IMG/VR virus record: IMGVR_UViG_3300021963_000649
Coordinates: 1-23,815 of that record
Reading direction: 5' to 3' (one strand)
Source: a virus
Length of the DNA: 23,815 nt
The translations under genes were made by a program, and so were the position numbers. The notes under the pieces are model-generated. The model saw nothing but the letters and a program-made list of their open reading frames with translations. It did not search any database and was not told where the DNA came from. This document shows, one piece after another, positions 754 through 19,822 of this stretch (position 1 is its first letter; each line of letters opens with the position of its first letter).

Positions 754-760
754 TATTTAG
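754..760 (-). promoter_or_regulatory. CTAAATA late-promoter-like motif
   Basis: Minus-strand GGCTAAATATATCTG, 57 bases before ATG 696, in the gap after the propeller gene. The distance is almost the same as for the copy before the connector gene. The ribosome site further on is part of the palindrome CCTTATAAGG. Confidence 0.4.
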
Positions 761-781
761 CCAGTTATGGTTATACCACAT

Positions 782-1807
782 TTATACCGTGATATAACTT
801 AAAATTCTGTTAGGTGATTGATTATAGGCAGGATCCAGTGTGCCTATGGATGTAAATGTGTTATTAACTCTGGAAAAAATGTAAAAATATGGACTACTTG
901 TGGTCAATAGATATATTTCAGACCCATCATCTGTCCATTTAACATTTAACACAGTGCCCGACACTGACAGATCAGTGATGTATGTATAGGTATCTCCACT
1001 GACATTGTATATGGTATTACCCACTGCTAGGCTTGTGCCATTCTGATTCCAAGCCACATGACTGGCCACAGTGGGTCTTGATCCTGCTGGAAATGTTGAG
1101 TCTGGTAACTTGGTATAGGTAGTGCCTGAAATATTGTATATGGCAATGTAAGGTGACACTGAATGACTGACTGCCAATTTGGTACCATCTGGTGAAAAGT
1201 CCATGCTACGAACTAATCCACCTAGATCTGTTTTGGTCAATACATCTGTAAATGTAGTACCTGAGATTGATACAATTCTAATATCAACGTTGGCAGCATT
1301 GGCAGTATAACCTAAGGCCAGGGTGTCACCGGCTTTGTTAATGGCCAAATATCTAGCATCATCTTCATAGGCATCACTGATGCCAAGATCAAATGAATCA
1401 TAGGCATTAGTCCAATATTGAACATAAGCAGATTCTGGTTCGCCTTGAACTGTGACAAATTTAAATGCTGTGTTTGGTGACCAAGCAAGATCTAATATTC
1501 CTTGATTGGTACCAAAACTACTGTAGAGTTCTGTGAGTGTTGAGGTATCGTTGTTGAATGAATATACTTTAAAATATTCACTGCCGCCAACCACACCCTG
1601 CCACACCATGGTATCACCTCGAGGATTCACAGACAATTCAAAAGTTTCTGTGGGTGTTGAAGGTGACCAAGTCAATGCCTGTTCTGTCAATGTGTCAGTG
1701 CCGGTACGCTTGTAGAGATTGACCACATCGTCAGTATTGGCTTCACCACTGAGAAATAGATTAGCCCACTTTTCTCTCAGTGTGCCTGCTGTCCAATGAA
1801 AAAACAT
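782..1807 (-). CDS. Predicted beta-propeller (WD40/YVTN-like) structural protein
   Basis: 341 residues with six or seven repeats of about 45 residues, each with a DxxWSPxG/T-type turn and a Y-strand. Examples: LTWSPSTPTETF (about 45), LAWSPNTAFKF (about 107), LAINKAGDTLALG (about 154), MDFSPDGTKLAVSH (about 203), VAWNQNGTSLAVG (about 250) and VKWTDDGSEIYLL (about 289). These match the beta-propeller pattern in which FSPDG turns mark blades. No catalytic residues of lactonases or peptidases can be named. Placed between two fibre-type genes, it is probably a receptor-binding or adhesin component. Stop-start overlap TAATG couples it to the fibre gene. Confidence 0.85.
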   Translation of the reverse strand: MFFHWTAGTLREKWANLFLSGEANTDDVVNLYKRTGTDTLTEQALTWSPSTPTETFELSVNPRGDTMVWQGVVGGSEYFKVYSFNNDTSTLTELYSSFGTNQGILDLAWSPNTAFKFVTVQGEPESAYVQYWTNAYDSFDLGISDAYEDDARYLAINKAGDTLALGYTANAANVDIRIVSISGTTFTDVLTKTDLGGLVRSMDFSPDGTKLAVSHSVSPYIAIYNISGTTYTKLPDSTFPAGSRPTVASHVAWNQNGTSLAVGNTIYNVSGDTYTYITDLSVSGTVLNVKWTDDGSEIYLLTTSSPYFYIFSRVNNTFTSIGTLDPAYNQSPNRILSYITV

Positions 1808-2574
1808 TAAGAATAATTCCTAATCAATGATGACAGGTATCTTGATCCATCATAGTAAATGGTCATGACATCTATTGCGTTGGCAGATGCTGTGAGCGTT
1901 TTGATACCATTGGCAAACTTATAACTGGCGTTAGGTGTAAATGTACGACCACCTGTACCATCCTGTGTGATGATCAGTGTTAGATTTGCTCCCGCTGCGA
2001 TATTACTGGGCAGAGCCAAAGTAAAGTTACCTGTAGCAGTCACAGTCTGTACAGGTCCATTTGCGAAATTAGGTGTCACTGTGCCTGAACCTGAATTGCC
2101 TATGCTATAAACTGATTCTTTGTAGGGACCCAATGTGGTTGTGCCTGTAAATGATTTAGCACCTGTGACAGTCTGAGAAGTGTCAGTGGTTACCACATTG
2201 TTGGCTGCGATGGTTATGGTATCTGTGCCAGCATTTGTGGTTATCACAATGTTGTTGCCCTGAGCAAAGGTCAATGTATCTGCGGTACTGTCAGGAGTTA
2301 TCGTGGTCTGTCCTGAGACTTCAATGCTGGTGAATAAGTTTGGACTAGGCTGTGAATTGGTTATGGTCAGCGTGTCTGTAGTGGGATTCAGTGTCAGTGA
2401 AATGCCAGTGCCCGCTGCGATAGTCAATGCTGAATTTAGGTCAATGGTAGCAGTGTCTGAGCCCACAGTGAAGCCTATGGTACTGTCACGTAAGTTAGTA
2501 AAGTTTGTGTCAAGTTCTGAATAACTCAACGCTTGGCCCTTGACTGAGCGGAACGTTATTGAGGGTTTGGCCAT
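1807..2574 (-). CDS. Tail fibre-like structural protein
   Basis: 255 residues, rich in Thr, Ser, Gly, Asn and Ile. N-terminus ALSYSELDTNFTNLRDS is a known start in aquatic phage fibre proteins and is matched by the partial gene at the left edge (ALTWTEGDANITNLNND). Repeated beta-strand blocks (ATIDLNSALTIAAGTG, NIVITTNAGTDTITIAANN) suggest a beta-solenoid shaft, then a C-terminal VMTIYYDGSRYLSSL end. It is probably a trimeric fibre or fibre base. It ends TAATG with the propeller gene. Its ribosome site lies in a hairpin loop. Confidence 0.82.
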   Translation of the reverse strand: MAKPSITFRSVKGQALSYSELDTNFTNLRDSTIGFTVGSDTATIDLNSALTIAAGTGISLTLNPTTDTLTITNSQPSPNLFTSIEVSGQTTITPDSTADTLTFAQGNNIVITTNAGTDTITIAANNVVTTDTSQTVTGAKSFTGTTTLGPYKESVYSIGNSGSGTVTPNFANGPVQTVTATGNFTLALPSNIAAGANLTLIITQDGTGGRTFTPNASYKFANGIKTLTASANAIDVMTIYYDGSRYLSSLIRNYS

Positions 2575-2576
2575 CT

Positions 2577-2596
2577 GTGAAGATCCTTGTCTTCAC
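2577..2596 (-). promoter_or_regulatory. Hairpin with Shine-Dalgarno in loop, CsrA-consensus-like
   Basis: Minus-strand GTGAAGA, loop CAAGGA, TCTTCAC: a perfect 7-bp stem. The loop with its flanks reads ACAAGGAT, matching the core of the CsrA/RsmA consensus (ACARGGAU), and it is the ribosome site of ATG 2574. Confidence 0.6.
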
Positions 2597-2597
2597 A

Positions 2598-2605
2598 TAT
2601 TTATA
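2598..2605 (-). promoter_or_regulatory. TATAAATA late-promoter-like motif before fibre module
   Basis: Exact TATAAATA in the 34-base gap upstream of ATG 2574. A start six bases downstream would fall inside the left arm of the AAGGA-loop hairpin at 2577-2596, so late RNA would lack that hairpin while read-through RNA would have it. Confidence 0.5.
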
Positions 2606-2869: not shown

Positions 2870-3248
2870 AGTCTAGTCCAATTTGGAATCTAACTGCTTC
2901 ACAGCCCATCTGTGCTAGAGCAAGACTGATATATTCAATGTCTTCCATCTGCTTGTTGGTAAAGTCACGCTGTGGCTGAGTCTTGAACATCATATTGTGT
3001 AGTATGCCAGCGACCACAGAACAGGGCGTGTTTGGACCCTGCTGTCCTTTGTGTAGTTTCTTGCTTTTCTTATGCCACCATTGATCACGGACCCAACGAC
3101 TGTCCTGATCATGATTTTGATCCATCTGACCTAGCACAGTTTGCCAACGTATGAGTTCAGTCTGTAACCACAGTTGATCATCCTGAGATATCTCACGATA
3201 CTCTGTGTTGGCTGAAGTTACTTTGGGTAGATATTTTATGATCCGCAT
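2862..3248 (-). CDS. Protein of unknown function (128 aa)
   Basis: Start at ATG 3248 was chosen because AAAGGAG lies nine bases upstream; a start eight codons earlier would skip it. The protein has RIIKYLPKVTSANTEYRE, a charged helix (DDQLWLQTELIRWQTVLGQ), a Trp/Lys-rich central part (RWVRDQWWHKKSKKLHKG) and an Ile/Leu helix near the end. No motif is recognised. It overlaps the coiled-coil gene by eight bases. Position between small accessory genes and the fibre module does not define a role. Confidence 0.7.
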   Translation of the reverse strand: MRIIKYLPKVTSANTEYREISQDDQLWLQTELIRWQTVLGQMDQNHDQDSRWVRDQWWHKKSKKLHKGQQGPNTPCSVVAGILHNMMFKTQPQRDFTNKQMEDIEYISLALAQMGCEAVRFQIGLDYE

Positions 3249-3514
3249 AGTTGTTTTCTCCTTTCCAAGCATCTGCGTATGTGTTCAGCACGAGGCACTA
3301 TTTCTACATTGTCTATGCTCCAGGCACCATCTGGATCTCTGCGTGTCATGGTAAGACTGTCACTGTCACGCCCACGTAGATGCCATTGGCCCTCCCAGGC
3401 AGTGACAAACTCTTCTTCTGTAAGCAGCCATTCTTCACCACGGAAGTGTGCCTGTGAGTCCATGACCACATAAGCACGATGCTGTGCTTTTTCTAGATCA
3501 GTCCAGGTTTTCAT
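3236..3514 (-). CDS. Small HNH-associated-like protein of unknown function
   Basis: 92 residues from ATG 3514, which has AAGGAC upstream. The frame extends to ATG 3565, giving 17 more residues (PKLKYKTQRRTWSRTE), but that ATG lacks a ribosome site and would be leaderless behind TATAAATA. The sequence LTMTRRDPDGAWSIDNVEIVPRAEH has the layout of a motif (LxxxRxDxxxxWSxxNVxxxxRxEH) found near HNH-type phage nucleases, but no His-Asn-His set can be seen. Role could be DNA binding or a degraded nuclease. It overlaps the next gene by 13 bases. Confidence 0.72.
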   Translation of the reverse strand: MKTWTDLEKAQHRAYVVMDSQAHFRGEEWLLTEEEFVTAWEGQWHLRGRDSDSLTMTRRDPDGAWSIDNVEIVPRAEHIRRCLERRKQLCGS

Positions 3515-3570
3515 TTCAGTCCTTGACCAAGTCCTACGCTGTGTTTTATATTTTAGTTTGGGCATAGTTA

Positions 3571-3578
3571 TATTTATA
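3571..3578 (-). promoter_or_regulatory. TATAAATA late-promoter-like motif
   Basis: Exact TATAAATA on the minus strand in the 33-base gap after the lipoprotein gene. A start about six bases on would coincide with ATG 3565 (leaderless) or give a leader of about 50 bases to ATG 3514. Confidence 0.5.
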
Positions 3579-4011: not shown

Positions 4012-4040
4012 ATAGTAGCATATAATAAATATGTTGTCAA
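4012..4040 (-). promoter_or_regulatory. Sigma70-like promoter with extended -10
   Basis: TTGACA at 4040-4035, a 17-base spacer ending TGC (an extended -10 TG), and TACTAT at 4017-4012; a perfect TATAAT overlaps three bases further on. The expected start is at or next to the A of ATG 4005, so the mRNA would be leaderless. Confidence 0.75.
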
Positions 4041-4611: not shown

Positions 4612-4628
4612 GTTATCTCCTGATTAAA

Positions 4629-4646
4629 GGACTTCTATAGAAGTCC
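4629..4646. repeat. 18-bp perfect palindrome, operator or RNA hairpin
   Basis: GGACTTCTA/TAGAAGTCC with no spacer, 17 bases before ATG 4611. A symmetrical site of this size suits a dimeric repressor; as RNA the stem would have little loop. It is followed by TTTAATCAGGAG, which holds the ribosome site. Confidence 0.6.
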
Positions 4647-4653
4647 GTTCTGC

Positions 4654-4691
4654 GTAAAATACTACATTCGCTCTGCTCACTTGTATTTTAC
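4654..4691. repeat. Inverted repeat GTAAAATAC / GTATTTTAC
   Basis: Two perfect 9-base arms with a 20-base spacer, in the leader upstream of the gene at 4204-4611. It could be an operator or an RNA hairpin. Function unknown. Confidence 0.6.
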
Positions 4692-4762
4692 TTGAACTAA
4701 GCAAAGATCTCAACAAACACTTCACCAAACATATAGAGAAACTTTATGTAGATTGTTCAGTC

Positions 4763-4791
4763 AGACGGAACCTATCTTAATGGTTCCGTCT
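4763..4791 (+). terminator. Hairpin with T-rich tail, plus-oriented
   Basis: AGACGGAACC, loop of nine, GGTTCCGTCT: a perfect 10-bp stem, followed on the plus strand by TATTGTCTTT. No plus-strand gene is visible, so it could stop antisense RNA or, in the minus direction, act only as a structured element. Confidence 0.4.
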
Positions 4792-5192
4792 TATTGTCTT
4801 TATGTGAGTTATCCCAGCCGAGACATTTGGAAGTAGGTAATTTTTCACTGTGTGCTAATGGGCTCTGTGCTTTCCCCGCCTACCACGACATCACGTATTT
4901 CTACGCTATCCCAAGCCTCGTTCCTAGTGCTTTGGGTTTTTATAGCCAGTGTGTTCGTATGCTAACATTCATACTATATCAAAGCGTTGGGCATATGGTT
5001 CGAACCCTCGGACTCACTTCCATTTTTCAGGATACTAGGATCTACCTAGGGGAGTGCTTCAATATGTCACGTGTCCTGTTTTTCACGCAGGTTTTTCCAC
5101 AGCGGTATTACAATCTGGCCCGCCAACCTTGGGTGTTAGATGTTTTGCCTAGAGAATTTGCCATTTGATTTGCCATTACGTTGCCTACGAAT

Positions 5193-5199
5193 TATTTAG
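5193..5199 (-). promoter_or_regulatory. CTAAATA motif in noncoding stretch
   Basis: Minus-strand TTGCTAAATAATTCG. It is the third CTAAATA-form copy and lies downstream of the hairpin at 5242-5267. It precedes no clear gene; only a 22-codon frame (MANQMANSLGKT…) follows, without a good ribosome site. Confidence 0.25.
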
Positions 5200-5241
5200 C
5201 AAGGACCAAAAAGACCATGATAAAAGTGGTTTTGCTCAAAC

Positions 5242-5267
5242 GAAAGCCCGTATAGGGACGGGCTTTC
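5242..5267 (-). terminator. Hairpin, possible terminator
   Basis: Minus-strand GAAAGCCCGT, loop CCCTAT, ACGGGCTTTC: a perfect 10-bp GC-rich stem with three T in the 3' arm, then GTTTG. It may end transcripts from the zinc-protein gene, or from the motif at 5364. Confidence 0.55.
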
Positions 5268-5363
5268 TAACACAGAGCAAGACCCATGGCAAGGTCTATG
5301 AGAAGATATTGATAAGTGACAGCCTATCAATTCAGGTAGATAACGGATGCCCTGTGCTAAAAA

Positions 5364-5370
5364 TATTTAT
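5364..5370 (-). promoter_or_regulatory. GATAAATA motif just after the zinc-protein gene
   Basis: The minus strand reads CATGATAAATATTTTTAGC, starting seven bases past a TAA stop. It fits the NATAAATA late-promoter form. The following RNA would run to the hairpin at 5242-5267, with no gene. Could be a small RNA promoter or chance. Confidence 0.3.
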
Positions 5371-5377
5371 CATGAGA

Positions 5378-5800
5378 TTAATCATGGTACCTAGTTATGG
5401 TTACTTGTCCGTGGGTTTCCTGTGTCATGCTACGACCATCTTTGTCTATGGCTTCTACTTTTTGAACTTTTTCCAATTGTTTGGCTTCAAGTTTTAACTG
5501 CTTGCGTTCATGCCTAATGATGCTGAGTACTTTGGCTGCGGTGCTGGTCAAAGGACCTTCTATGGGTTTCATGGTAATGGGATCCAAATACATGCCACAG
5601 CCCTTACAGTGACTACGCCAATAGACAAATGGCATATGCTGTTTGCTCATTTTACAGAAATTGTCAGTGACGGATTGATCACAGCGATCACAGTTGATGA
5701 TCTGTGGTCGCATTTTTTTGATCACCCAACTGCCAGTGTCTTCAGAATGAACTATTTCAGCCAGTTCACGTAAGCGTTTTTCAAAAAGTTCTTTGTCCAT
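5378..5800 (-). CDS. Cys-rich putative zinc-binding protein of unknown function
   Basis: 140 residues. Two CxxC pairs (C37/C40 in NCDRC, C65/C68 in HCKGC) with another Cys at 49 fit a zinc ribbon or knuckle. Around it are an N-terminal helix (MDKELFEKRLRELAEIV) and a long C-terminal charged helix (RHERKQLKLEAKQLEKVQKVEA). It could bind DNA, RNA or protein. It follows the tail terminator, so it needs its own promoter; I see none that is convincing and no good ribosome site before the ATG (ATAGTTTC). It is unknown to me. Confidence 0.72.
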   Translation of the reverse strand: MDKELFEKRLRELAEIVHSEDTGSWVIKKMRPQIINCDRCDQSVTDNFCKMSKQHMPFVYWRSHCKGCGMYLDPITMKPIEGPLTSTAAKVLSIIRHERKQLKLEAKQLEKVQKVEAIDKDGRSMTQETHGQVTITRYHD

Positions 5801-7147: not shown

Positions 7148-7429
7148 TTATAAAATTCCTGGGCTTGGTGGTGGTGATATCGAAGTATCTATGCCTTTGA
7201 TATCTCTGCGATAGGTATTGTGTCCTAGGTAATTAAACAAAAAATTATCTACGGTTAGATTGTTGTTGGCTACAGCAGAAGTTCTGCTGTTGGCCAAGGT
7301 CTTAGACGAAATGGTTATACCTGAGTCGTAATTGGCCACAGTCACTGTGGGTGGTATACTACCATTAATGCCTGTTACCAAAAGATCCTGTGAACTACGC
7401 AATGGATCTGCGGCTGTACCTCTGATCAA
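7148..7429 (-). CDS. Small tail-tip associated protein, TTG start
   Basis: 93 residues, starting with TTG overlapping the J-like stop by four bases (TTGA). No ATG or good ribosome site is available, so translation is probably coupled. Content is Asn/Ser/Thr-rich (SGITISSKTLANSRTSAVAN) and ends YRRDIKGIDTSISPPPSPG. Small proteins just after J in related phages often form tail-tip or fibre-attachment parts, but nothing here identifies the role. The next gene begins one base after its stop. Confidence 0.68.
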   Translation of the reverse strand: MIRGTAADPLRSSQDLLVTGINGSIPPTVTVANYDSGITISSKTLANSRTSAVANNNLTVDNFLFNYLGHNTYRRDIKGIDTSISPPPSPGIL

Positions 7430-10400
7430 TATACCACTGCTGAAGCAAAAGCACCACTGCCTGTGTCCTGATAGACCACTATCAATATTTCATCATAGGG
7501 ATTTGGTGCTGAAATTGGCACACCTCTAGCAGTGTTATTGTAAAGATTATTGATGCTGCCATCTCTGTTGTATTCGTAAAAGTGTGTTGGTGGTCTTAGA
7601 TACACAGTGATGTTACCACTAACGGCCTGTGCGGCTGTTCTGGTAATATATTCCCAACGACCAAGACCCCAATCTACATCACCTGTTTGACGTGTGAGTC
7701 CTGTGTGATTAGATCTACGGTAAAATCTAACACTGTGGAAACTCACGCCAATGTGTCCAATGTTGACCACTAGTTTGTAATAACTTCTAAGTGCGTTAGA
7801 AGTGATAAGATCAGTCCAGCAACCACTGGTTGATGTGTTAAAAATCTTAGATTCAATGATCTGTGCTGTGGGATTAACCTGTGCTTTGACTGCCTGTATG
7901 CGATTCAGTGCTTCGTTGGTGTTGGATTCTACAGGTGTCCATAGGCTCTTGTAGTTGATCTGTTCACCATAGACAGTGCTTAGGAATGTGTCGCTGGGTA
8001 TGCCTGGTTGTGAACCCGCTTGTGATCTACTCACAGCATAAGGTTTACCTGTTAGTGTCCAACATTTATCCGATTCAACAGTGCTGCTGCCATCTCTGAC
8101 CAAAGGCACTAGGATCCAGTCGTATTCAAAATTGAAATCTACGTTTACAGGAATACCTACAAGTCCATCTGCGTCATTGCTTTGTACAGGTACATCTGCT
8201 GACTGCCAAGGATTGTTTCTTGAGAACGGATCATATTTTCTCCAATACAGTCTTAGTCCTCGATAATAGACCAAATTGGCTGAGGCAGTGGGTATTACGC
8301 CAAATCTCACTGTAGGTACATTGCCTCCGCCGAGGCCAGATGATCTTGCGAATACATAGCGTATTCCTACAGTGAGATTCTTAGGCGATCCAACCGCTCC
8401 CGGATTGTCTGCTACTCTTAATAATTCATAAGCACCTGCTTCTTCTGTAAAGATAGAAACTGTGCTAGGTATAAACACTCCATAGAAATTACCTGTGTAG
8501 GTAACATCTACGTTCATGTATCTACGCTGTCTTGTTGACTGGCGTGTGTCATTGTAGTAATATCTAACAATGAAATCATAGTTTTTAACCAAATCACCTG
8601 TGTTACCAATGTTGCCATCAAACACAATGTTGGCAATATCACCGCTGCGGTATGTGCTAGGGAATCTGTAGATCTGTTCATACCAATACACAGTGCCGGT
8701 TTGACGCCAGTAGATGATCACACCTACAATATCTGGGTTTGGTGATTCTGCTCCTACAGTGCTGAGACAGTTTTCTTGTATTTGAAAATTTAATCTTCTA
8801 GCACTGCCTGATGTAGCAGCGTTGGCATAGGTTATGCCCGGTCTATTGTTTCTAATCAATGCTGGTACAAAGATAGGCAACGACCAACCTGGTTCTATTA
8901 TAGAAATGTTGTCATCTGGTGCTACTCTAGCATCTCCAAATGATGTAGCATTGAAATTAAATCTGTTTACAGCCTGTGACTTTTCACCTGTGCTGTATCT
9001 AACTCTACTGATAACTTCATAGGCACGATTATTGATCACTGCTTCTGGTAAAGTAAAACTGATCAGTTGACCAGCACCAGGTTTAAATGTACACACTGCC
9101 TGTTTGTAGCCAATGTCTGTTAATCCTCGATACCACAACTCCACAGACTCATACATGGCATGACTTGGCTGCGTAAATTCTAATATAGCATTCAACTGTT
9201 GGTCAGCGATCACAGTAAATCTAATGTACTGTATGTCAATAGTATCAGTTAAGGTCAATGGTATTTCTACAGGTGGTATACTAGGTGTTTGTATGTTGAT
9301 ACTTCCACCAGATCCACCAACACCACCACCTGATGAAGTATTTGGATTAGTTTGGTTATATCCGGGAACATATGCTGGTGGAACTAGTCCAATTGGCAAT
9401 GCGTTGTTGCTGGTTGGATAATAAATTGACGCACCCTTAGGCACAAACACTGGTAACACGATATCTTCTTCGCCTACACGAGTATGCGGATAGATGTCAT
9501 CAGGATTACGCACACATGATAACTGTACAGTCATGTCGTCATTTAATTTAAATGAAATAATACGCCATGGATCTGTGCTAAAATCTAAAATATTGCTCTG
9601 TATGCGTATACAATCGCCAGGTTCTAATTCTAGTGCTTGACTGCTGACAGTGAGTGTACAAGATTCTTGACGACGTGATTTGTTAAACAACATGCGAGCA
9701 AAATCTTTGGCAATAGCATAATTGGTAATAGTACCAAATGTAGACTCTAATTTGTTTTCACGTCCACCATCTTGTACAATATAAGTCTGACGGTCTGATT
9801 CTGATTCTGGATAGATAACCTGTTGTGTAGAATACTTGTTGTCTGGATCTACATAGGTCACAGCCACTGATGTATATTTGGCAGATTTATCAATGCCAGT
9901 AAATTGTACATCACCTTGTATATTGTCTGGTGTAAATGTAGCAGCAATAGTGGCTACACCACTTAGGATGTCATCTGGATCACCAGCATCTTCAACCTTT
10001 AATTTGTATTTGCCCTGTACATAAGGCATGTAAGAACGAAATCCCTGTAATAGAGATTTTGTGTTGTTTAACAATGACTGACCTGTGTCTAACACATAAT
10101 TACAGGTCATAATAGGACCTTTGATATCTGAAGTGTAGGTTACTTCCTGATTACATTTTATAGCAGCCTTTTTCCAAGTGGTAAAATCTATGTCCGCATT
10201 GACCAATCCTTTACCATATCTAGGATTGCGTAGATAATCTAAAAGTATTTCTGCTGGGTTAGTAGAATAACGTTCTGTATAGCCCGCAGCACCATATTCA
10301 TATTGCCCCGGATTAGCAACTACTAGGCTGGCTACTTTTTTACCTAACAGTGTGGCTTTGACTTCTGGAATTGAACCAGTAAATGGATTTGAATCAGCAT

Positions 10401-11013
10401 CGGCTTGTGTTTCAATTTTTCTCCAATAGAAACGAGCAAACAAAACTGCCAAACCATTGTAATACATGCTGTCTTTCCAACTTGGTGCGTCAGCCATTAA
10501 TGTTCTGCTAGGTACTACTGAATCATTAACTGGGTCATCATAGTATACGCCTGGAAAAAATTGTAACTGTACACGACCAGCATATTTGCCTTCGCCTACA
10601 GCAACAATGTTACCTTCTCCGGCCATTAGGTTAGTGATAGTGGCATTGTCTATTTGGTAATCATCGATGTAAAGTTCTCTAAGCCCTTCTACTAGTCCTT
10701 CAGAAAACACATAGGCTACCCAAAGATATTGGTTATTGCTGGATCCTGTTTCTGCGTAGGTAACAATACCGCCAACTTTACGCATACCATAAACCACAGG
10801 TATGTTTACATTTGATCCTTGTCTTTGTACTAGTACGCCATCTTGCCTCTGTGCTTCTTGTCCAGCATTGGGCATGTCCATGGGTCCCATAAATGGCTGT
10901 GTTAGGAAGTTCAATACTGAACCAACAACACCAACCACTGCCTTGACTACACCAACTACGGCTTTGACTACACCACTAATGGCATTGCCAATGGCTTTAA
11001 AGACCTTACTCAT
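7426..11013 (-). CDS. Tail tip/central fibre protein, J-like (TipJ type)
   Basis: 1195 residues, the largest gene and the last shared tail gene, like lambda gpJ, which recognises the host. The N-terminus has a repeat of GVVKAVV in a hydrophobic helix, then GSNVNIPVVYGMRKVGGIVTY, a typical start for this family. A conserved hub part (RNPRYGKGLVNADIDFTTW and the later TGQSLLNNTKSLLQGFRSYMPY, read in part) follows through about residue 550. A Gly/Ser linker with GGGVGGSGGS comes next, then fibronectin-like and beta-rich modules to the C-terminus. The C-terminal part is likely the receptor-facing portion. Its stop overlaps a TTG start of the next gene. Confidence 0.93.
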   Translation of the reverse strand: MSKVFKAIGNAISGVVKAVVGVVKAVVGVVGSVLNFLTQPFMGPMDMPNAGQEAQRQDGVLVQRQGSNVNIPVVYGMRKVGGIVTYAETGSSNNQYLWVAYVFSEGLVEGLRELYIDDYQIDNATITNLMAGEGNIVAVGEGKYAGRVQLQFFPGVYYDDPVNDSVVPSRTLMADAPSWKDSMYYNGLAVLFARFYWRKIETQADADSNPFTGSIPEVKATLLGKKVASLVVANPGQYEYGAAGYTERYSTNPAEILLDYLRNPRYGKGLVNADIDFTTWKKAAIKCNQEVTYTSDIKGPIMTCNYVLDTGQSLLNNTKSLLQGFRSYMPYVQGKYKLKVEDAGDPDDILSGVATIAATFTPDNIQGDVQFTGIDKSAKYTSVAVTYVDPDNKYSTQQVIYPESESDRQTYIVQDGGRENKLESTFGTITNYAIAKDFARMLFNKSRRQESCTLTVSSQALELEPGDCIRIQSNILDFSTDPWRIISFKLNDDMTVQLSCVRNPDDIYPHTRVGEEDIVLPVFVPKGASIYYPTSNNALPIGLVPPAYVPGYNQTNPNTSSGGGVGGSGGSINIQTPSIPPVEIPLTLTDTIDIQYIRFTVIADQQLNAILEFTQPSHAMYESVELWYRGLTDIGYKQAVCTFKPGAGQLISFTLPEAVINNRAYEVISRVRYSTGEKSQAVNRFNFNATSFGDARVAPDDNISIIEPGWSLPIFVPALIRNNRPGITYANAATSGSARRLNFQIQENCLSTVGAESPNPDIVGVIIYWRQTGTVYWYEQIYRFPSTYRSGDIANIVFDGNIGNTGDLVKNYDFIVRYYYNDTRQSTRQRRYMNVDVTYTGNFYGVFIPSTVSIFTEEAGAYELLRVADNPGAVGSPKNLTVGIRYVFARSSGLGGGNVPTVRFGVIPTASANLVYYRGLRLYWRKYDPFSRNNPWQSADVPVQSNDADGLVGIPVNVDFNFEYDWILVPLVRDGSSTVESDKCWTLTGKPYAVSRSQAGSQPGIPSDTFLSTVYGEQINYKSLWTPVESNTNEALNRIQAVKAQVNPTAQIIESKIFNTSTSGCWTDLITSNALRSYYKLVVNIGHIGVSFHSVRFYRRSNHTGLTRQTGDVDWGLGRWEYITRTAAQAVSGNITVYLRPPTHFYEYNRDGSINNLYNNTARGVPISAPNPYDEILIVVYQDTGSGAFASAVVY

Positions 11014-11473
11014 TGATCAACTCCTTGCTCATCATTACCAACGGTTTAAATCCAAAACTTTCATATAAGGCCTTGGTGCGGTCAGGATTGATACCAATGT
11101 CGCCCCCGGTTATTTCGTCTGCGTCTATGGTCTTGGCCCACTCAGTGAACTTTTCCATTAGGGCTTTAAATCTTTCCATGTTTCTATGACTTTTCAACAC
11201 ATAGATAAATGCGATATTAGCACTTACTTTGTTTTTGTTCCAAGGACAAGCCGAAGCATATCCTGCTATAAATCCCACGGGTCTATTGCCTTCATACATG
11301 TTGAACCAACAGTATTCATAATTGCTGGCATACAATCTAATAGTTTCTAACACAGAGTTTTCATCATATTCTTCTGCGATCTGTGGTAGACTTTCTATGG
11401 CTTCATCACGATAATATCCAAATAGGATCATAGTGCTGTCAAACTCTTGAGGTAACATCTTTCTTACAATCAT
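11006..11473 (-). CDS. GNAT-like acetyltransferase in tail-tip operon
   Basis: 155 residues, starting in an ATGA overlap at 11473 and overlapping the J-like gene by eight bases. The fold order fits GNAT. MIVRKMLPQEFD opens the domain, GNRPVGFIAGYA gives strands 2-4, SANIAFIYVLKSHRNMERFKALMEKFTEWAKT (quoted as the region at about 86-117) is the acetyl-CoA strand and helix, and DRTKALYESFGFKPL is the family C-terminal motif. The usual R/QxxGxG/A loop reads LKSHRNMERF, so the glycines are missing and catalysis is uncertain. In lambda this place holds gpK, an NlpC/P60 peptidase. It may modify a tail or host protein, or be a structural relic. Confidence 0.78.
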   Translation of the reverse strand: MIVRKMLPQEFDSTMILFGYYRDEAIESLPQIAEEYDENSVLETIRLYASNYEYCWFNMYEGNRPVGFIAGYASACPWNKNKVSANIAFIYVLKSHRNMERFKALMEKFTEWAKTIDADEITGGDIGINPDRTKALYESFGFKPLVMMSKELINE

Positions 11474-12063
11474 AGACGACCCCATTTAAATTCTGTTTGT
11501 CCTACAAATCCTGTTTTTTCCATAGTGGTATCGTCTTGCCTTCCTTGATAAAACCAGTTTGACCAATTGTTGGTTTTACGACCTGCTGTGCGTTCAAAGT
11601 CAGCAAATAGACTAGAACAATCTACATTCAATTGACATGATTTTGAACTTTCATTAACCGCAATGTTGTAAATGATACCATCAAACATTAGGATTGGAGT
11701 CTGAACAATGGCCAACGTCTGTGTATTTAAAAAGGCCTTATAGACCACTACACGTTTTCCTTCTGTGCCTTGTCCAATAAATTTATTAACAAAATTATTA
11801 CCAATGGCTGACAGATAGATTGTAAATTTGCCTATCTTAACATCAAAGTCTTCTGAGATTCCTGAAAACCCCATAAAGTCACCTTGTGCTGTGTAGACAT
11901 TGCTGCCTGCGTCTGGTGCTGTACTACTATCATAACTGATGTTAGCACCGCCTGTAGTTAGGTACAGGTTATTAGGTGACCCTAATTGTATTTCTACTAG
12001 GTCAACACAGAAATTATGATCTCTGTAAAATTCATCTCTAACATCTTGATGATATGTTTTCAT
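11470..12063 (-). CDS. Minor tail protein (DUF2163-like / gpL-like position)
   Basis: 197 residues. Start at 12063, which forms TAATG with the preceding stop; 20 extra codons upstream (Trp-rich) lie inside the previous gene and are unlikely. A LVEIQLGSPNNLYLTTGGANISYD segment, a FSGISEDFDVKIGKFTIYLS segment (each cited in part) and a later Cys pair (CQLNVDCSS) suggest a beta-rich tail-tip protein like lambda gpL or DUF2163 proteins. These make the tip complex with J. It ends ATGA with the next gene, so translation is coupled. Exact family is not certain. Confidence 0.75.
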   Translation of the reverse strand: MKTYHQDVRDEFYRDHNFCVDLVEIQLGSPNNLYLTTGGANISYDSSTAPDAGSNVYTAQGDFMGFSGISEDFDVKIGKFTIYLSAIGNNFVNKFIGQGTEGKRVVVYKAFLNTQTLAIVQTPILMFDGIIYNIAVNESSKSCQLNVDCSSLFADFERTAGRKTNNWSNWFYQGRQDDTTMEKTGFVGQTEFKWGRL

Positions 12064-12881
12064 TACCAGTTTTCTCTCATGCCAATTTTTAAAGTAGTTA
12101 GTCCACCATAACCTACCGACCATTCTTGTACATCTTCACTGAGTATGGCTGTAAATGGCACAGCAGTTAATGTTAATGATTCATGATAGGTAACCATAGT
12201 TGACACCACAGTCTGACTCTGACTTACTGTAGCAGTTGTTGAATTAGTAACAGCAGTAATATAAGTGCCGTTGACAACACCAGAACCCGTGATAGATTTT
12301 CCAACATAACTAGAATCCAATCCTGTAGTGGTTAATGTAGTGCCTGATATGCCAGTGCTTTTTAACACAGTGTCTACGTTATTGGTCAATGAACCTGAAA
12401 AATATAATGTAGCATTACCAGCAAAATCGCTGTCACAGGGACTAACACACATATAGACTTTTGAGTGTCCACTAAATTTGAAAAAATCACCAGCGGCCAA
12501 CACACGCTTTGATGATCCACAATTTTCTAATTTAATCTGTTTAACACCTATGGTATTAGTAAATCCATTAGGTGCGTCAGCAGTGACCACACGTACTCTA
12601 GTACTAGGAGCATTAGTGCTCTTTGTATAAGAAATTTCTGGCAGCACAATTTCAAATGATAATTGTGGACCAAATGTTTGTGCTAGATATCCCTGTATAG
12701 TGCCTGCTTCTACAGGAGTTAGTGTGGGATATTGTACTTCCCATGTGTAGTAACTGACGCCATAACCTGTTCTACGAACTTTGCCTGAATTTGTTTCGGT
12801 TACCTGGCTAGGCGTTACTAGTTTAAAATTCACTGATTGAAAACTAGGACTACTTGGATATTGTGTTGTTAAATCAGCCAT
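12063..12881 (-). CDS. Distal tail / minor tail protein with inserted repeat domain
   Basis: 272 residues, first gene after the tape measure, where distal tail (gpM or Dit-like) proteins lie. The N-terminal part is beta-rich (YTWEVQYPTLTPVEAGTI, then FGPQLSFEIVLPEIS). From about 168 to 232 there is a Thr/Ser/Gly-rich repeat-like stretch (GISGTTLTTTGLDSS, SITGSGVVNGTYITAV). It looks like a fibre or Ig-type module inserted before the C-terminal TAVPFTAILSEDVQEW. Such a GSGVxxGTYITAV pattern is known from adhesin and tail-fibre repeats. The stop forms TAATG with the next gene. Position suggests a hub or distal-tail role; domain boundaries are inferred. Confidence 0.75.
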   Translation of the reverse strand: MADLTTQYPSSPSFQSVNFKLVTPSQVTETNSGKVRRTGYGVSYYTWEVQYPTLTPVEAGTIQGYLAQTFGPQLSFEIVLPEISYTKSTNAPSTRVRVVTADAPNGFTNTIGVKQIKLENCGSSKRVLAAGDFFKFSGHSKVYMCVSPCDSDFAGNATLYFSGSLTNNVDTVLKSTGISGTTLTTTGLDSSYVGKSITGSGVVNGTYITAVTNSTTATVSQSQTVVSTMVTYHESLTLTAVPFTAILSEDVQEWSVGYGGLTTLKIGMRENW

Positions 12882-15257
12882 TTATACCATGCTCCTTTGT
12901 CCACGCTCAAGCATGGCATCTGAAATAATCTGTTTGATCACAGTCTGTCTTGATGTTAACAATTCATCAAAGCCTGTGGTGTCATTGGCAACAATAGTAA
13001 AGTTTACGTTTACTGGACCACCGCCGCCTAGATCACTGTTTCTAGTTATTGAACCAGTGGTGTTGGGTGTGAACAATTCTGGACCGTTCTCACCAACTAG
13101 GTATGGTGTACCGCCCATAACTGGACCACCTAACTGACGTCCTGAGTATTGTTGGTTACGGATCGTGGCAACCTGAGCAAGACCCATACCAATAACCGCA
13201 GCGGCTGCGATAAAGTTAAATGGTGGTGGATAAGTGGCCAATGCTTTGGTAGCACCCATATAGGTGTTCATGATAGCGTTGGCAATGTTAAATGCCTTGG
13301 CTGCTTCAAAGGCTTTCTTGTTGTGAGCACCTAATGCTGAGAACATTTGAGCACCTTGGTCGATGACAAATGCGGCTTTTTCTGTTTCTGATTTCTTTTC
13401 AAATGCGATACGATCATTAACGATCTGTGCCTGACGTTCCTGGGCACCGCGTTGCTGTAATATGGCTTGATCATCAGCACTAAGTTTTTGTGCCATACCT
13501 GATCTTTCAGCCATTAATGTACGTTGAATACGATCTACATCAACTTGTAATTGTTTTTCAGCATATTCTTGTTTTAATCTTAATTTTTCTTCTTCTAAAG
13601 CACGATATAGATCAGTTTCTCGACCATTGTTCATAATCAATGATTGTGTTTGAGTATTTGATATATCTCCACTTTTCTTAACGTAATCCATTTCTAATCT
13701 ACCGCGTTCTGTTAGACTCCATCCATATTGAATTACAGTCTGGCGGAAATTATGTTTTACGCGATCATATCTTTGTTGTTCTAAATCAATTAATTCAGCA
13801 TTACCTGATTTTTGTGCTTCTATTAATGCTTTGTTAGCAACTTCAATTTCTTTGGCAGCACTATCAAATTCTTTAGAACTTGGAACAGCAAATTTTAATT
13901 CTGCCTGTCTTAGGGCGTCTCTTGTGGCCTGTATACGTTTTACTGCTTCTTCTTCTCTGATAGCACCTGCTATTCTGTCTTTTTGTTGTTGTGTTAGAGT
14001 CAGGCCAACCTTTTCTAATTTGGCATTTTCTTCAGCCAATACTCTAACCACGCGAGCCTCAATTTCACCTAAGGCCAATCTATCGCGTTGGAATTGTACT
14101 GCTCTTTCAAGACCTAATATGGTAGTTTCTAATGTTTCTAAGGCCTTTTTCTGTTCTTCGTTAAATCCTTGTGCTACTTCAACTGCTTCAGTTAATTTTT
14201 CATTTCTAGTATCTAAAGCAACATTGATTTGATCTTCAGCACCTTTGATATCTAGATTAAGATCTAAAAAATCGCCGGCTGCTCCAACAAGATCGACACC
14301 TAATGCGTCTGCGGCTATGGCTATACCAGCAGCCAATAATCCAATTGGTGTCCTAGCCAATACAGCACTGATGCCTTTGGCTGCTATCAGAGCACGACCT
14401 AATTGGAAGGCAAATTGAGCAGCACCAACTACTAGTCTAGCAGCCAATATGGTAGCAATGATTGTAGCAATGTTGGCAATGGTATGTAAGACTTCTTTGA
14501 TCTTTTTCCATATGCCTTCAAATCCACCTGCTTCTTTAATGGCTTCTTTGATTTTATTGACTATGGCAACGATATATGGTGCTATTTCTGCCACGGCTTT
14601 CTTGACGCCAGCATCCCATAATATTTTTAATTGGTCTACACTATCGCTGGCTTCATCTAGGGCTACTAGATCTCTTTCAGTGACACCTAGTCCTGTTTCT
14701 TCTGTGATCCTACGTACTTTTTCTAATTCTTCTGCGACTTTAAGAATTGCTGGCCCTTGTTTGCCAAACAACTCTATACTTGCTGCTACTCTCTGACTAG
14801 GATTTTCTATAGCCAGTATTGCTTGACTGATCCTTTGGAATTGTTCATCAGGTCGAGATCTTACTATTTCCTGGATAGGGATATTAAGACTTTTTAAGGC
14901 TTCAACAGCAGGTCCTGAACCTTTGGCTAATCCTTCACCGATATTATTAGACAGTCTAATAATGCTAGCATTGAGTGTGTCAGCACCTACTCCTGCTAGA
15001 CCTGCGGCATATTGTAGTTCTTGTAATTTTGCTGCTGAAATACCAATAGCGTCAGCGGCATCTATAACAGCACCAGCAGCATCGGCAGTTCTGAGAACTG
15101 CGTAGGTCATTGCTGCCGCAGCACCTGTTATTATTCCCAGTGCTGCTGCTACATCTGCTGAAGCCGATTGGAGACTATCTAGGCTCTTTTCTAGATTACC
15201 AATGGCACGTTCCGCTTGACTGGTATCCGCGGTTACTTTAATTTTTGTTTCTGCCAC
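12882..15257 (-). CDS. Tail tape measure protein
   Basis: 791 residues starting at GTG, with GGAG seven bases upstream and directly after the chaperone extension's stop. The N-terminus (AETKIKVTADTSQAERAIGNLEKSL) is typical of tape measures. A long alpha-helical body has hydrophobic segments around 250-330 (IANIATIIATILAARLVV and following), thought to insert in the host membrane, and a coiled-coil, Gln/Arg-rich middle. The C-terminal part (GAQMFSALGAHNKKAFEAAKAFNIANAIMNT and GGPVMGGTPYLVGENGPELF, both only partly quoted) is the conserved tail end of this family. Tape measure length sets tail length; 791 residues suggest a tail near 120 nm by the usual rule of about 1.5 Å per residue. Confidence 0.95.
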   Translation of the reverse strand: MAETKIKVTADTSQAERAIGNLEKSLDSLQSASADVAAALGIITGAAAAMTYAVLRTADAAGAVIDAADAIGISAAKLQELQYAAGLAGVGADTLNASIIRLSNNIGEGLAKGSGPAVEALKSLNIPIQEIVRSRPDEQFQRISQAILAIENPSQRVAASIELFGKQGPAILKVAEELEKVRRITEETGLGVTERDLVALDEASDSVDQLKILWDAGVKKAVAEIAPYIVAIVNKIKEAIKEAGGFEGIWKKIKEVLHTIANIATIIATILAARLVVGAAQFAFQLGRALIAAKGISAVLARTPIGLLAAGIAIAADALGVDLVGAAGDFLDLNLDIKGAEDQINVALDTRNEKLTEAVEVAQGFNEEQKKALETLETTILGLERAVQFQRDRLALGEIEARVVRVLAEENAKLEKVGLTLTQQQKDRIAGAIREEEAVKRIQATRDALRQAELKFAVPSSKEFDSAAKEIEVANKALIEAQKSGNAELIDLEQQRYDRVKHNFRQTVIQYGWSLTERGRLEMDYVKKSGDISNTQTQSLIMNNGRETDLYRALEEEKLRLKQEYAEKQLQVDVDRIQRTLMAERSGMAQKLSADDQAILQQRGAQERQAQIVNDRIAFEKKSETEKAAFVIDQGAQMFSALGAHNKKAFEAAKAFNIANAIMNTYMGATKALATYPPPFNFIAAAAVIGMGLAQVATIRNQQYSGRQLGGPVMGGTPYLVGENGPELFTPNTTGSITRNSDLGGGGPVNVNFTIVANDTTGFDELLTSRQTVIKQIISDAMLERGQRSMV

Positions 15258-17586: not shown

Positions 17587-18024
17587 TCAGCGTACCAATC
17601 TCATTGGGTTAACACTTTTCTTTTCACTGTCACTGACTGTACCACTGTCATCTAGATCATAGCGAACACCTTCACGTAGGACTAGGTCCATTTCGTGTTC
17701 AAAGCGGCCACGATAGTAATCCATCATTACTTGGAACTTGTCTGGCTCAGCACCTGAAAATTGTGTTAGTTTGGGACAGATATGATAGGCCATGGCATGA
17801 TATACAGTGGCCTGTGTGAATTGAGTTGCGTCTAATAATGTAGCGTCAAATTCTGTATTGATAATTGAAGGATGTGCTTTTTGATATGCTTGATACCAAC
17901 GCACTTTAAGGACTCTATTGACTTCGTTTTCTGAACGTGCTAATTCGACATCCCATTCGAGTTGTCCATAATCTTGGATTGTGGGTTCGACCTGTAGGAG
18001 GTCGTCTAGTGTAGCATAAGCCAT
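17587..18024 (-). CDS. Head-tail connector (adaptor) protein candidate
   Basis: 145 residues, first gene after the capsid. It begins with MAYATLDDLLQ, the kind of N-terminus seen in gp6/gp15-type connectors that join the portal ring to the tail. The middle is helical (ARSENEVNRVLKVRWY, then TQATVYHAMAYHI), and the C-terminal DLVLREGVRYDLDDSGTVS segment has an acidic turn. Adaptors of this kind are usually helical bundles of about 100-150 residues. Function is inferred from size, helix content and position. Its ribosome binding site lies in the loop of a hairpin, suggesting controlled translation. It ends one base before the next start. Confidence 0.75.
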   Translation of the reverse strand: MAYATLDDLLQVEPTIQDYGQLEWDVELARSENEVNRVLKVRWYQAYQKAHPSIINTEFDATLLDATQFTQATVYHAMAYHICPKLTQFSGAEPDKFQVMMDYYRGRFEHEMDLVLREGVRYDLDDSGTVSDSEKKSVNPMRLVR

Positions 18025-18054: not shown

Positions 18055-18071
18055 CGTCAGTCCTTCTGACG
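18055..18071 (-). promoter_or_regulatory. AAGGA-loop hairpin 1 (CsrA/RsmA-like site)
   Basis: Minus-strand CGTCAG, loop AAGGA, CTGACG: a perfect 6-bp stem with a purine pentaloop containing GGA. Together with the similar hairpin nearer the start codon it makes a tandem pair. GGA in a hairpin loop is the hallmark of CsrA/RsmA binding sites. Confidence 0.5.
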
Positions 18072-18078
18072 TTCAGTA

Positions 18079-18085
18079 TATTTAG
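18079..18085 (-). promoter_or_regulatory. CTAAATA late-promoter-like motif before tail operon
   Basis: The minus strand reads AACTAAATATACTGAACG. It sits just after the capsid terminator and 54 bases before ATG 18024. A start about six bases on would place the 5' end of the RNA right at the first AAGGA-loop hairpin (18071). It has the same CTAAATATA form as the copy upstream of the gene at 277-696. Confidence 0.45.
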
Positions 18086-18099
18086 TTCGGCCAAAAGAA

Positions 18100-18130
18100 A
18101 AGGGCCTTACTTCGGTGAAATAAAGCCCTT
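18100..18130 (-). terminator. Strong intrinsic terminator downstream of the major capsid gene
   Basis: Minus-strand stem AAGGGCTTTATTTC pairs with GAAGTAAGGCCCTT (14 pairs, two of them G-U) over a 3-base loop, then TTTCTTTT follows. It closes the scaffold-capsid transcription unit before the tail genes. Confidence 0.85.
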
Positions 18131-18170
18131 GTCCCGTTTTCGGAATATAGTATGTCAAGTACTACACTTT

Positions 18171-18177
18171 TATTTAG
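18171..18177 (-). promoter_or_regulatory. CTAAATA motif between capsid hairpin and terminator
   Basis: The minus strand reads GACTAAATAAAAG. It matches the CTAAATA form seen at 18079 and 754. If used as a promoter it would give only a short RNA of roughly 65-70 bases ending at the terminator at 18100-18130. It may equally be a chance match in AT-rich spacer. Confidence 0.25.
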
Positions 18178-18182
18178 TCATG

Positions 18183-18206
18183 ACAAAGGACCCGAAGGTC
18201 CTTTGT
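18183..18206 (-). other. Perfect 10-bp hairpin with TTCG loop after capsid gene
   Basis: On the minus strand ACAAAGGACC, loop TTCG, GGTCCTTTGT form a perfect stem with a very stable UUCG tetraloop, about 20 bases after the capsid stop. The bases after it (CATGACTAAATAAAAG) lack a T run, so it is not a standard intrinsic terminator. It could protect the 3' end of the capsid mRNA or help a downstream stop of transcription. Confidence 0.7.
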
Positions 18207-18226
18207 GGTATTGATTCTACTTAAAA

Positions 18227-19081
18227 TTAAGCAGGATCAACTAGGCTTGAGTCAGCAGTGATCTTAACACCGTAACCATCATACAACTCGCCAACGCCAT
18301 AGTGAGCGGAAGCAACGATGTCGTCGCCTACGAAACTAGCACGTCTTTGTGTTTCAATTTGGATGTCACCAATCATAGCAAGACCTAAAGCGTCACGATG
18401 GAATACAGCACCAACGTAATCACCAGCAGTACCAGTGTTAGCAATGTTGCTTGACTCAAATACTGGAACACCAAATAGTGTACCAACATAGCCAGTAGCC
18501 ATTGCTTCGTTTTGGATGATACCAGCATTTGGGTTAGCAAATGTGTTGGTTAATGCTGATTTCAAGTCATAGGCAACGTATGGGTTAACCACACATGCCA
18601 ATTGATCGCTAGGAACACTGTTAGCACGAAGACGAGCAACTGCTTGTGCTAGGATGGCTGCTGAGAATGCTGTAGAAGCACCACCAACGCCTGTTGAGAA
18701 ACCGCTGAATAGAGCCAATAGGTCTTGGTCCATCTTCTTAGCGATTGCTTCACCGAATAAACGGCCAACGTCTGCTACTACGTTAGAAGCAGCAGAAGCA
18801 CGTACAAGGTCAGTAACCATAGTACGAATAGCAACTGTAGAAACAGTTAGTGTAACACCATCAGTGCTGATTGCTGTGTTAGAAACCTCATCACCTTCAG
18901 TCAATGCTGCTGCTGATTGTGTTGGGTAGATAGGCACAGTAATGGTTTTACCATTGCTTGCTGGGATTGAATAATTCTTAACGAGACCACGCATGATGGA
19001 TCTCTCGTTAGCAACGAACATTGCTTCAGCGGTAATCGCTGGTAGCAGGTCGTTTAAAGTTGTGGTTGTTGAACCGGCCAT
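18227..19081 (-). CDS. Major capsid protein
   Basis: 284 residues, the size and place of an HK97-fold coat protein. The N-terminus (TTTTLNDLLPAI, then FVANERSIMRGLV) resembles the N-arm region of P22/T7-like coats, and the later DQDLLALFSGF and PYVAYDLKSAL segments fit a spine helix and A-domain. No separate delta domain or protease gene is visible, consistent with the separate scaffold gene upstream. Composition is Ala/Val/Gly/Thr-rich, as in abundant structural proteins. The start has AAGGAG nearby. A gap with a hairpin and a strong terminator follows, so transcription is probably cut after this gene to favour capsid over tail output. Confidence 0.93.
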   Translation of the reverse strand: MAGSTTTTLNDLLPAITAEAMFVANERSIMRGLVKNYSIPASNGKTITVPIYPTQSAAALTEGDEVSNTAISTDGVTLTVSTVAIRTMVTDLVRASAASNVVADVGRLFGEAIAKKMDQDLLALFSGFSTGVGGASTAFSAAILAQAVARLRANSVPSDQLACVVNPYVAYDLKSALTNTFANPNAGIIQNEAMATGYVGTLFGVPVFESSNIANTGTAGDYVGAVFHRDALGLAMIGDIQIETQRRASFVGDDIVASAHYGVGELYDGYGVKITADSSLVDPA

Positions 19082-19099
19082 AATAATATCTCCTTGATG

Positions 19100-19783
19100 T
19101 TAGGCTAATCCTTGTTGTTTGCGGTATTCCGCATACTTCTTTCTATCTTCAGGATTCTTCATATCCAACTTCAAGATATCTACTTTGCCAGTATTCTGAG
19201 CAGTGATACTGCTTTTACTGTTAGTGGTAGCAGGAGTAGGTTGGACGAAGTGTGGATTCGAATCTAAAAAGGTTTTCACCAAATCATTCACACTCCACGG
19301 TTCTCCTCGATCGTTATATCGAACTGAACCTTTATCATCTACTACTTCTACGTCACCATCTTGATTAAGTCTTACATTATTTGCTAACAACGCTTTGACC
19401 TGTTCAGCATTCACAGCACGAAATTGAGCAGCGGCACTGAGCAGAGGCGTGTTAATTTGGTATTCCTTAATCTTCGCATCTCTCTTTTGGATTTCTGAAT
19501 CCTTTTTAGCAGCCAGTTCTTGTAGAGTCTTTTCAAACTCACCACGCTTGATCTGTTGTTCCTGAGCACGGCGTTCTGCCTCTGACTTGAGACTACGCAG
19601 TTCATCTGGATCACCTAGATCTTGATATGGTTTCAGAAGTTTCTTTTCTAATGAACCACGCATACGGGCCATCATGTTATCTACTTCTTCTTGTGTATAA
19701 GTCTTGGTTGCTTGTGCCTGATTTTCAACTTGTGTGTTGTCCGCATCAGTTGCGTCATTTTGTACCAATGTATTTTCTGACAT
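19100..19783 (-). CDS. Capsid scaffolding protein
   Basis: 227 residues, acidic and highly charged, immediately before the major capsid gene. After a low-complexity, Asn/Asp/Gln-rich N-terminus comes TYTQEEVDNMMARMRG and a long predicted coiled coil (about residues 30-110, rich in K, E, Q and R). A globular stretch follows, then a Ser/Thr/Asn linker and a positively charged C-terminal helix (PEDRKKYAEYRKQQG). Such a basic C-terminal helix is known in scaffolds that contact coat protein. No protease motif is visible, so the scaffold may be expelled or cut by an enzyme encoded elsewhere. AAGGAGG precedes the start. Assignment rests on layout and position. Confidence 0.85.
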   Translation of the reverse strand: MSENTLVQNDATDADNTQVENQAQATKTYTQEEVDNMMARMRGSLEKKLLKPYQDLGDPDELRSLKSEAERRAQEQQIKRGEFEKTLQELAAKKDSEIQKRDAKIKEYQINTPLLSAAAQFRAVNAEQVKALLANNVRLNQDGDVEVVDDKGSVRYNDRGEPWSVNDLVKTFLDSNPHFVQPTPATTNSKSSITAQNTGKVDILKLDMKNPEDRKKYAEYRKQQGLA

Positions 19784-19814
19784 TGTGGCATCGCCTCCTT
19801 ACGAGTAATGTTAG

Positions 19815-19822
19815 TATTTATA
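19815..19822 (-). promoter_or_regulatory. TATAAATA late-promoter-like motif before scaffold gene
   Basis: The minus strand reads TATAAATA here, the exact consensus of T4-type late promoters. Transcription would begin about six bases further on, leaving a leader of roughly 26 bases with AAGGAGG before ATG 19783. It lies in the only gap between the 41-residue gene and the scaffold/capsid pair, where strong late expression is expected. A chance AT-rich match is possible; the location and the other copies argue against it. Confidence 0.5.

Follow-up and report, generated by a model that had tools for sequence, protein, structure and literature searches.

Gene content and TAAATA copies of the window

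The window, by which we mean the whole 23.8-kb stretch of viral DNA that was analysed, comes from a phage with head, packaging and tail genes of its own, the following all lying on the minus strand: the terminase large subunit (22110–23426; phrog_2), the portal protein (20623–22134; phrog_145), the head scaffolding protein (19100–19783; phrog_2303), the major capsid protein (18227–19081; phrog_267), the tape measure protein (12882–15257; phrog_9483) and a central tail fibre J-like protein (7426–11013; phrog_37728, phrog_31). Its sister phages are the HTVC111P-type Pelagibacter phages (HTVC026P, 111P, 112P and 202P), which have genomes of about 32 kb and a similar gene order; their capsid proteins are 54–55% identical to that of the window's family (55% for the window's own against HTVC112P), and their terminases 51–55%. 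For an endonuclease VII-type nuclease (20279–20626, minus strand; phrog_423), the best matches come from phages of podovirus size, including Xanthomonas phages of roughly 43 kb. Two further minus-strand genes encode conserved proteins of unassigned function, one at 19966–20382 and one with a zinc ribbon (CxxC...CxxC; 5378–5800), which occurs in one of the two subclades of the family only. The former was considered as a cyanomyovirus protein and rejected, as it is without match in phage records and all its matches are on viral contigs no longer than 37 kb. The structure models of the two are modest (pTM 0.33 and 0.67).

The minus strand carries eight TAAATA cores outside the genes, at 754, 2598, 3571, 5193, 5364, 18079, 18171 and 19815, in agreement with the original prediction, which also gave the correct number of exact TATAAATA octamers (three, at 2598, 3571 and 19815). 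Its notation, (T/C/G)TAAATA, was imprecise, because the sites at 2598, 3571, 5364 and 19815 have A ahead of the core and those at 754, 5193, 18079 and 18171 have C. Gene 11470–12123 contains a ninth minus-strand copy, TTTAAATA at 11724, so that the earlier statement that none falls inside a gene is true only of [AC]TAAATA; on the plus strand there is one AATAAATA (4024–4031). TAAATA is below chance over the whole window (10 seen, 20.4 expected), and the signal is therefore where the copies are placed. The gaps make up about 2.0 kb of the 23.8 kb and hold all eight minus-strand [AC]TAAATA, compared with a mean of 1.24 and a maximum of 6 in 2000 dinucleotide shuffles of the window's gap sequence, none of which reached 8.

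Position of the sites relative to genes and hairpins

The TATAAATA site at 19815–19822 (minus strand, as are all the following) precedes the scaffold gene by 31 nt, this being the first gene past the best conserved of these putative promoters. Two ACTAAATA sites share the gap downstream of the capsid gene: the one at 18171–18178 comes immediately after a terminator-like hairpin (AAGGACCTTCGGGTCCTT, 18186–18203), which separates it from the capsid gene, and the second, at 18079–18086, is upstream of a neck-type gene (17587–18024), with a CGTCAG/CTGACG hairpin close downstream of it. The GATAAATA site at 5364–5371 lies in the gap following the zinc-ribbon gene, and a GCTAAATA site at 5193–5200 lies within gap 4612–5377. 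A TATAAATA site at 3571–3578 precedes gene 3236–3565, whose real start is probably an internal ATG preceded by AAGGAC, and a further GCTAAATA site (754–761) is upstream of a head-protein gene (277–696).

The remaining TATAAATA site (2598–2605), upstream of gene 1807–2574, adjoins a hairpin, GTGAAGA-CAAGGA-TCTTCAC (2577–2596), whose loop by fold computation hides a ribosome site. A transcript from the predicted +1 (about 2592) would lack the 5' part of the stem, and its computed fold would have −1.6 kcal/mol, as against −10.6 kcal/mol. This one hairpin is arranged similarly to the leader hairpin of T4 gene e (PMC3014915). Of 91 sites in the family, 16 have a stem of at least 6 bp that starts 1–16 nt past them (1.7 expected), and 13 have a terminator-like stem ahead of them (1.0 expected).

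Conservation in relatives

The expectation that the motif would be kept in the gaps of relatives was borne out. NTAAATA is present upstream of the scaffold gene, at 15–77 nt, in 52 of 53 non-redundant relatives, where 8.8 would be expected. The gaps of 18 related records contain 57 copies of ATAAATA on the coding strand and a single copy on the opposite strand; no other 7-mer, Shine-Dalgarno included, is as strand-asymmetric or as enriched in gaps. A chance build-up of an AT-rich word can draw on the AT-rich gaps and on the whole-window count, which is not above expectation; it was rejected by the gap shuffles, the strand asymmetry and the orthologous conservation, and we give it a negligible probability.

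The motifs lie in gaps, co-oriented with the virion genes and at short distance from them (median 31 nt from motif to start codon, 26 in T4). TAAATA is conserved in the TATAAATA-like family octamer, a change at −13 is tolerated, and neither a −35 box nor a shared activator site was found upstream of the motif in the family. T4 late promoters likewise have no −35 (PMC2988020), and among T4 relatives the base at −13 can vary and that at −12 can be C (PMC1524935). The late promoters of Straboviridae and Kyanoviridae, which depend on gp55, gp33 and gp45, share with these sites the TATAAATA octamer, the variable −13, a −12 base that is A or C and a distance of a few tens of nucleotides to start codons. 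Aeromonas phage Aeh1 and phiM7-type phages use CTAAATA (PMC1524935), the C at −12 being shared with half of the sites in the window, and in phiM7 the gaps show a 10:1 ratio for this form; these phages encode gp55, whereas the family mixes A and C forms and gp55 was not found in it.

Antisense avoidance inside genes

With expectations derived from codon-preserving shuffles, antisense ATAAATA within family genes was seen once, against 61.9 expected. Avoidance of this kind is shared with T4 (4 seen, 20.3 expected), HTVC008M (1 and 18.5), cyanomyoviruses (5 and 17.7) and 80 gp55-bearing contigs (12 and 132). The uncultured DSL-LC06 from the Dishui Lake metagenome, a circular 29.8-kb relative with a capsid protein 44% identical (PMC10611076), agrees with the family (0 seen, 6.3 expected). 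The sister HTVC111P-type phages, unlike the family, neither use nor avoid the motif (37 seen, 27.4 expected). Antisense GTAAATA is also avoided in the family (6 seen, 59 expected) but not in environmental T4-like phages (142 seen, 129 expected), and it seems that the family's reader tolerates G at −12.

These counts bear on the possibility that the hexamer is no promoter and has some different strand-specific role, for example as a terminator tail, within a 5' leader or in mRNA processing. The hairpins that adjoin many copies, on one or both sides, would suit such an element; they are near many sites, not all, and the antisense avoidance inside genes is hard to square with a function in the sense RNA. 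As the octamer is also a known promoter, which gp55-bearing phages avoid likewise, we regard this explanation as quite improbable. From promoter grammar, conservation and coding-sequence selection, all computed here, we infer that the gap-confined sites initiate transcription, and they are very probably promoters of the T4 late type.

Search for the reader of the sites

The original prediction had combined a T4-late-type motif with the phage's own gp55-like system. The first part stands, since the motif is conserved and co-oriented, lacks a −35, lies about as far from start codons as in T4 and is avoided in antisense inside genes. The second does not: neither gp55 (phrog_234) nor the gp45 clamp was found in the window or the closed relatives, with T4 as positive control in both searches. 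A remote search with an 83-sequence gp55 HMM at maximum sensitivity, covering ORFs of at least 25 aa, gave nothing below E = 3 outside T4-like controls. Any gp55-type sigma reading the sites must consequently come from elsewhere.

A late factor of the phage's own that is not recognisably gp55-like, either a sigma or an RNA polymerase appropriation protein, might instead be found among the small early proteins; it would have evolved towards the T4 octamer or converged on it. The non-structural module, where perfect TTGACA-N17-TATAAT promoters are located, is the expected place for one, many small ORFs are without database match, and most T4-like phages do not share the apparent tolerance of G at −12. 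Against this, the motif is present in both subclades, yet the small terminase is the sole non-structural gene that spans the family, and no other tracks the motif. The zinc-ribbon protein was rejected as the late factor, as it is missing in subclade B, which retains the motif. Pfam and PHROG scans of the accessory proteins revealed neither a lysis enzyme nor a transcription-factor family. The one sigma-like hit, to region 1.1, came from a single genome, where it covered about 32 residues of a protein of 74 aa; it was under the curated cut-off and was also discarded. Taken together, a factor of this kind appears rather unlikely.

A host-encoded alternative sigma that reads TAAATA, so that the phage would use a host regulon, could account for a motif that is tracked by no phage gene. 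However, the elements match T4-type promoters, the variable −13 included, and standard housekeeping sigma-70 promoters exist separately. To our knowledge, no bacterial sigma recognises a lone TATAAATA-type element with no −35, and we hold this explanation to be improbable. The host itself was sought with a capsid-gene pattern scan of 84,980 species genomes, in which no copy was found. Palindrome avoidance, as a host fingerprint, gave too few data to name one.

Gene content of the closed relatives

Six relatives are closed (G002–G006 and G010; 28–31 kb). G001 was not accepted as such, as its overlapping ends are only 81–89% alike, and this contig probably joins two relatives around the full gene circle. 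Neither a recognisable endolysin nor a DnaD-type loader was found in the closed family genomes or DSL-LC06, whereas the cultured HTVC111P-type phages have an endolysin in four of four and a DnaD-type loader in three of four; the absence of endolysin and sigma is homology-based, and fast-evolving proteins might escape. Replication genes were mostly absent too: Pfam and PHROG scans found none in G001, G002 and G006. G010 encodes a pair of primase-like and DUF5906 proteins, and G004 and G005 encode large proteins of unassigned function, so that any dependence for replication would not be uniform. The cultured sister phages likewise have no annotated DNA polymerase, and a small genome lacking one is thus no proof of dependence. 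For DSL-LC06, the published account reports replication proteins in all seven genomes (PMC10611076), contrary to its feature table, in which we found neither an endolysin nor a replication gene.

Discussion

T4 late transcription, with gp55 and the sliding clamp, has hitherto been regarded as a trait of T4-related phages. These have large myovirus genomes with gp55 and gp45, while the freshwater family described here is of siphovirus type, with genomes of 30 kb in which neither was found. T4-like promoters without these genes suggest that the family may rely on transcription proteins from a co-infecting T4-like phage. At roughly even odds (about 0.5), we infer from the sequences that its members are satellites which build their own virions and obtain the late transcription factors in trans from a T4-like helper. 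The broader proposal of a diverse and widespread group of freshwater siphovirus-like satellites, with genes for complete virions, no late sigma, clamp or recognisable lysis enzyme of their own, and T4-type late promoters that fire only during the helper's late infection, is tentative and falls a little short of even odds.

In the proposed mechanism, the perfect sigma-70 promoters of the early module would be read at once by the host enzyme, and the virion genes would wait for a gp55-like sigma, most likely provided in trans by the co-infecting T4-like phage. This sigma would recognise [A/C]TAAATA as a lone −10-like element (−12 to −6) without −35, often right behind a terminator, and transcripts would start about six bases past it. 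The T4-like helper would provide replication and lysis too. The Streptomyces satellite phages Flayer and Mulch likewise encode what they need for encapsidation, and key replication genes are missing from them (PMC10690885), as seems mostly to be the case in the family. Their dependence is reported from isolates; for the family it is deduced, with a T4-like helper and with the promoter type as the link.

T4-type late promoters thus probably drive an unrelated 30-kb siphovirus-type lineage in which the genes of their reader were not found. Should a new phage factor read the sites, it would have arrived at this promoter independently. Were the reader supplied by a helper, T4-like phages would commonly be parasitised by virion-building satellites in lakes, and the promoter grammar together with antisense avoidance would provide a detector of helper dependence that needs only sequence.

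Distribution of TAAATA sites

The window is an IMG/VR fragment whose supported genes all lie on the minus strand; they encode a terminase and a portal, head scaffold and capsid proteins, and a tail of siphovirus type. The eight minus-strand TAAATA sites reported earlier were recovered at 754, 2598, 3571, 5193, 5364, 18079, 18171 and 19815, four as ATAAATA and four as CTAAATA. Their placement outside genes holds for all eight copies of [AC]TAAATA, but not for a further copy, TTTAAATA, which is inside a gene at 11724. The gaps total about 2.0 kb and contain 8/8 [AC]TAAATA, while shuffles gave a mean of 1.24 and never reached 8.

A capsid search of viral contigs yielded 372 matching stretches, of which 80 were kept, and 17 large contigs from relatives were examined over their full length. 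Terminal repeats show six of these to be closed (G002, 31.3 kb; G003, 30.1; G004, 30.0; G005, 29.9; G006, 29.6; G010, 28.0). Metagenomic contigs can be chimeric, and the relatives' gene calls are mechanical; contig G001 covers one turn of the gene order with overlapping ends merely 81-89% alike, and therefore probably joins two relatives. Its terminase and portal share a single 903-aa open frame near one contig end (L087/L088, oriented 29729-32440), which may be a product of that joining. The G001 fibre (L087 13601-14263) shares a laminin-G-like domain chiefly with T4-like phages of Synechococcus, in baseplate or structural proteins (433 phage records).

The motif is kept in the gaps of these relatives. 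In 18 records, gap copies of ATAAATA number 57 on the coding strand and 1 on the other (25 to 1 for CTAAATA), and ATAAATA ranks first of all 7-mers for asymmetry and gap enrichment, ahead of the Shine-Dalgarno sequence. At 52/53 non-redundant loci the scaffold gene is preceded by NTAAATA, compared with 8.8 regions in shuffles; these copies (44 A, 8 C, 3 G in all) lie 15-77 nt from the start. Ahead of the scaffold promoter, the window encodes a conserved protein (19966-20382, minus strand) in which the motifs CPWSxAA and EWLxSxP occur and which has zero matches among phage records.

Avoidance inside genes

Against codon-preserving shuffles, family genes contain 1 antisense ATAAATA where about 62 are expected, and 11 sense copies where 40 are expected. 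Antisense avoidance is similar in gp55-bearing phages (seen/expected: T4, 4/20; HTVC008M, 1/18.5; two cyanomyoviruses, 5/18; 80 environmental contigs, 12/132), so that the family's DNA is shaped as though a gp55-type reader acts upon it. The Dishui Lake metagenomic phage DSL-LC06 shows this avoidance too (0/6.3), but the sister Pelagibacter phages do not (37/27). GTAAATA (6/59) and ATAAGTA (9/49) are also avoided in the family, unlike in the environmental T4-like set. Small samples of four other T4-like lineages suggest that −12 specificity differs among them. Palindromes including AAGCTT, AGCGCT, ACGCGT, GGTACC and AGTACT are also strongly avoided in family coding sequence, a possible mark of host restriction enzymes.

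Promoter anatomy

Recognition by a host sigma factor is an alternative that we place behind a phage-encoded factor. Neither a −35 hexamer nor any shared upstream site was found at the family's sites; the −35 is likewise missing from T4 late promoters (PMC2988020). Position −13 varies in T4 relatives, and Aeh1 uses CTAAATA (PMC1524935). The median distance from site to next start is 31 nt, compared with 26 nt in T4. Terminator-like stems precede 13/91 sites (1.0 expected), and stems of at least 6 bp start 1-16 nt downstream of 16/91 (1.7 expected). Many sites are directly followed by a perfect inverted repeat (for example G003 18622, G014 11421 and window 18079), possibly a 5'-end hairpin on late mRNA.

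At 2577-2605 (minus strand), TATAAATA at 2598 adjoins a downstream hairpin with the ribosome site in its loop. RNA begun at the predicted +1 would lack the stem's 5' portion, and its folding energy would change from −10.6 to −1.6 kcal/mol, the arrangement described for T4 gene e (PMC3014915). Several members also have one or two perfect TTGACA-N17-TATAAT promoters of sigma-70 form within the non-structural module, so that an early/late split of transcription is likely. We consider the motif a T4-late-type promoter, well supported by sequence, at a probability of about nine in ten.

Candidate readers of the motif

The original prediction of a gp55-like system of the phage's own was not borne out: neither the PHROG profile, with T4 serving as the control, nor a full-sensitivity HMM built from 83 gp55 proteins detected gp55 in the family, and the gp45 clamp is absent. 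The main rival to a helper phage as source of the reader is an unrecognised factor encoded by the phage itself, and family scans can miss fast-evolving proteins. A conserved zinc-ribbon protein (CxxC...CxxC; window 5378-5800, minus strand), with zero database relatives, occurs in one subclade only, and both subclades use the motif; small terminase is the sole non-structural gene spanning the family. Pfam and PHROG scans of the accessory proteins, one of them listing 25 of 38 families, gave nucleases, holin-like proteins, a methyltransferase, a UDP-glucose dehydrogenase and others of this sort; lysis enzymes, polymerases and transcription factors were not among the matches listed. G010 is the exception, encoding one protein that resembles a primase and another with DUF5906.

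The nearest named phages are HTVC111P-type Pelagibacter phages and DSL-LC06. A few of the family's sample sources are Lake Erie data sets; these and DSL-LC06 point to a probable freshwater habitat. All four sister phages carry an endolysin, and three of them also have a DnaD-type loader; neither occurs in the closed family genomes or in DSL-LC06. The DSL-LC06 feature table (OR003941, L086) lacks replication genes, yet its paper claims replication proteins in all seven Dishui Lake genomes.

Satellites that build their own virions exist in Streptomyces (PMC10690885). A helper phage supplying the reader in trans would explain in one step how T4-type promoters persist without a reader gene, and would also account for the family's lack of the lysis and, mostly, the replication genes of its cultured sisters.
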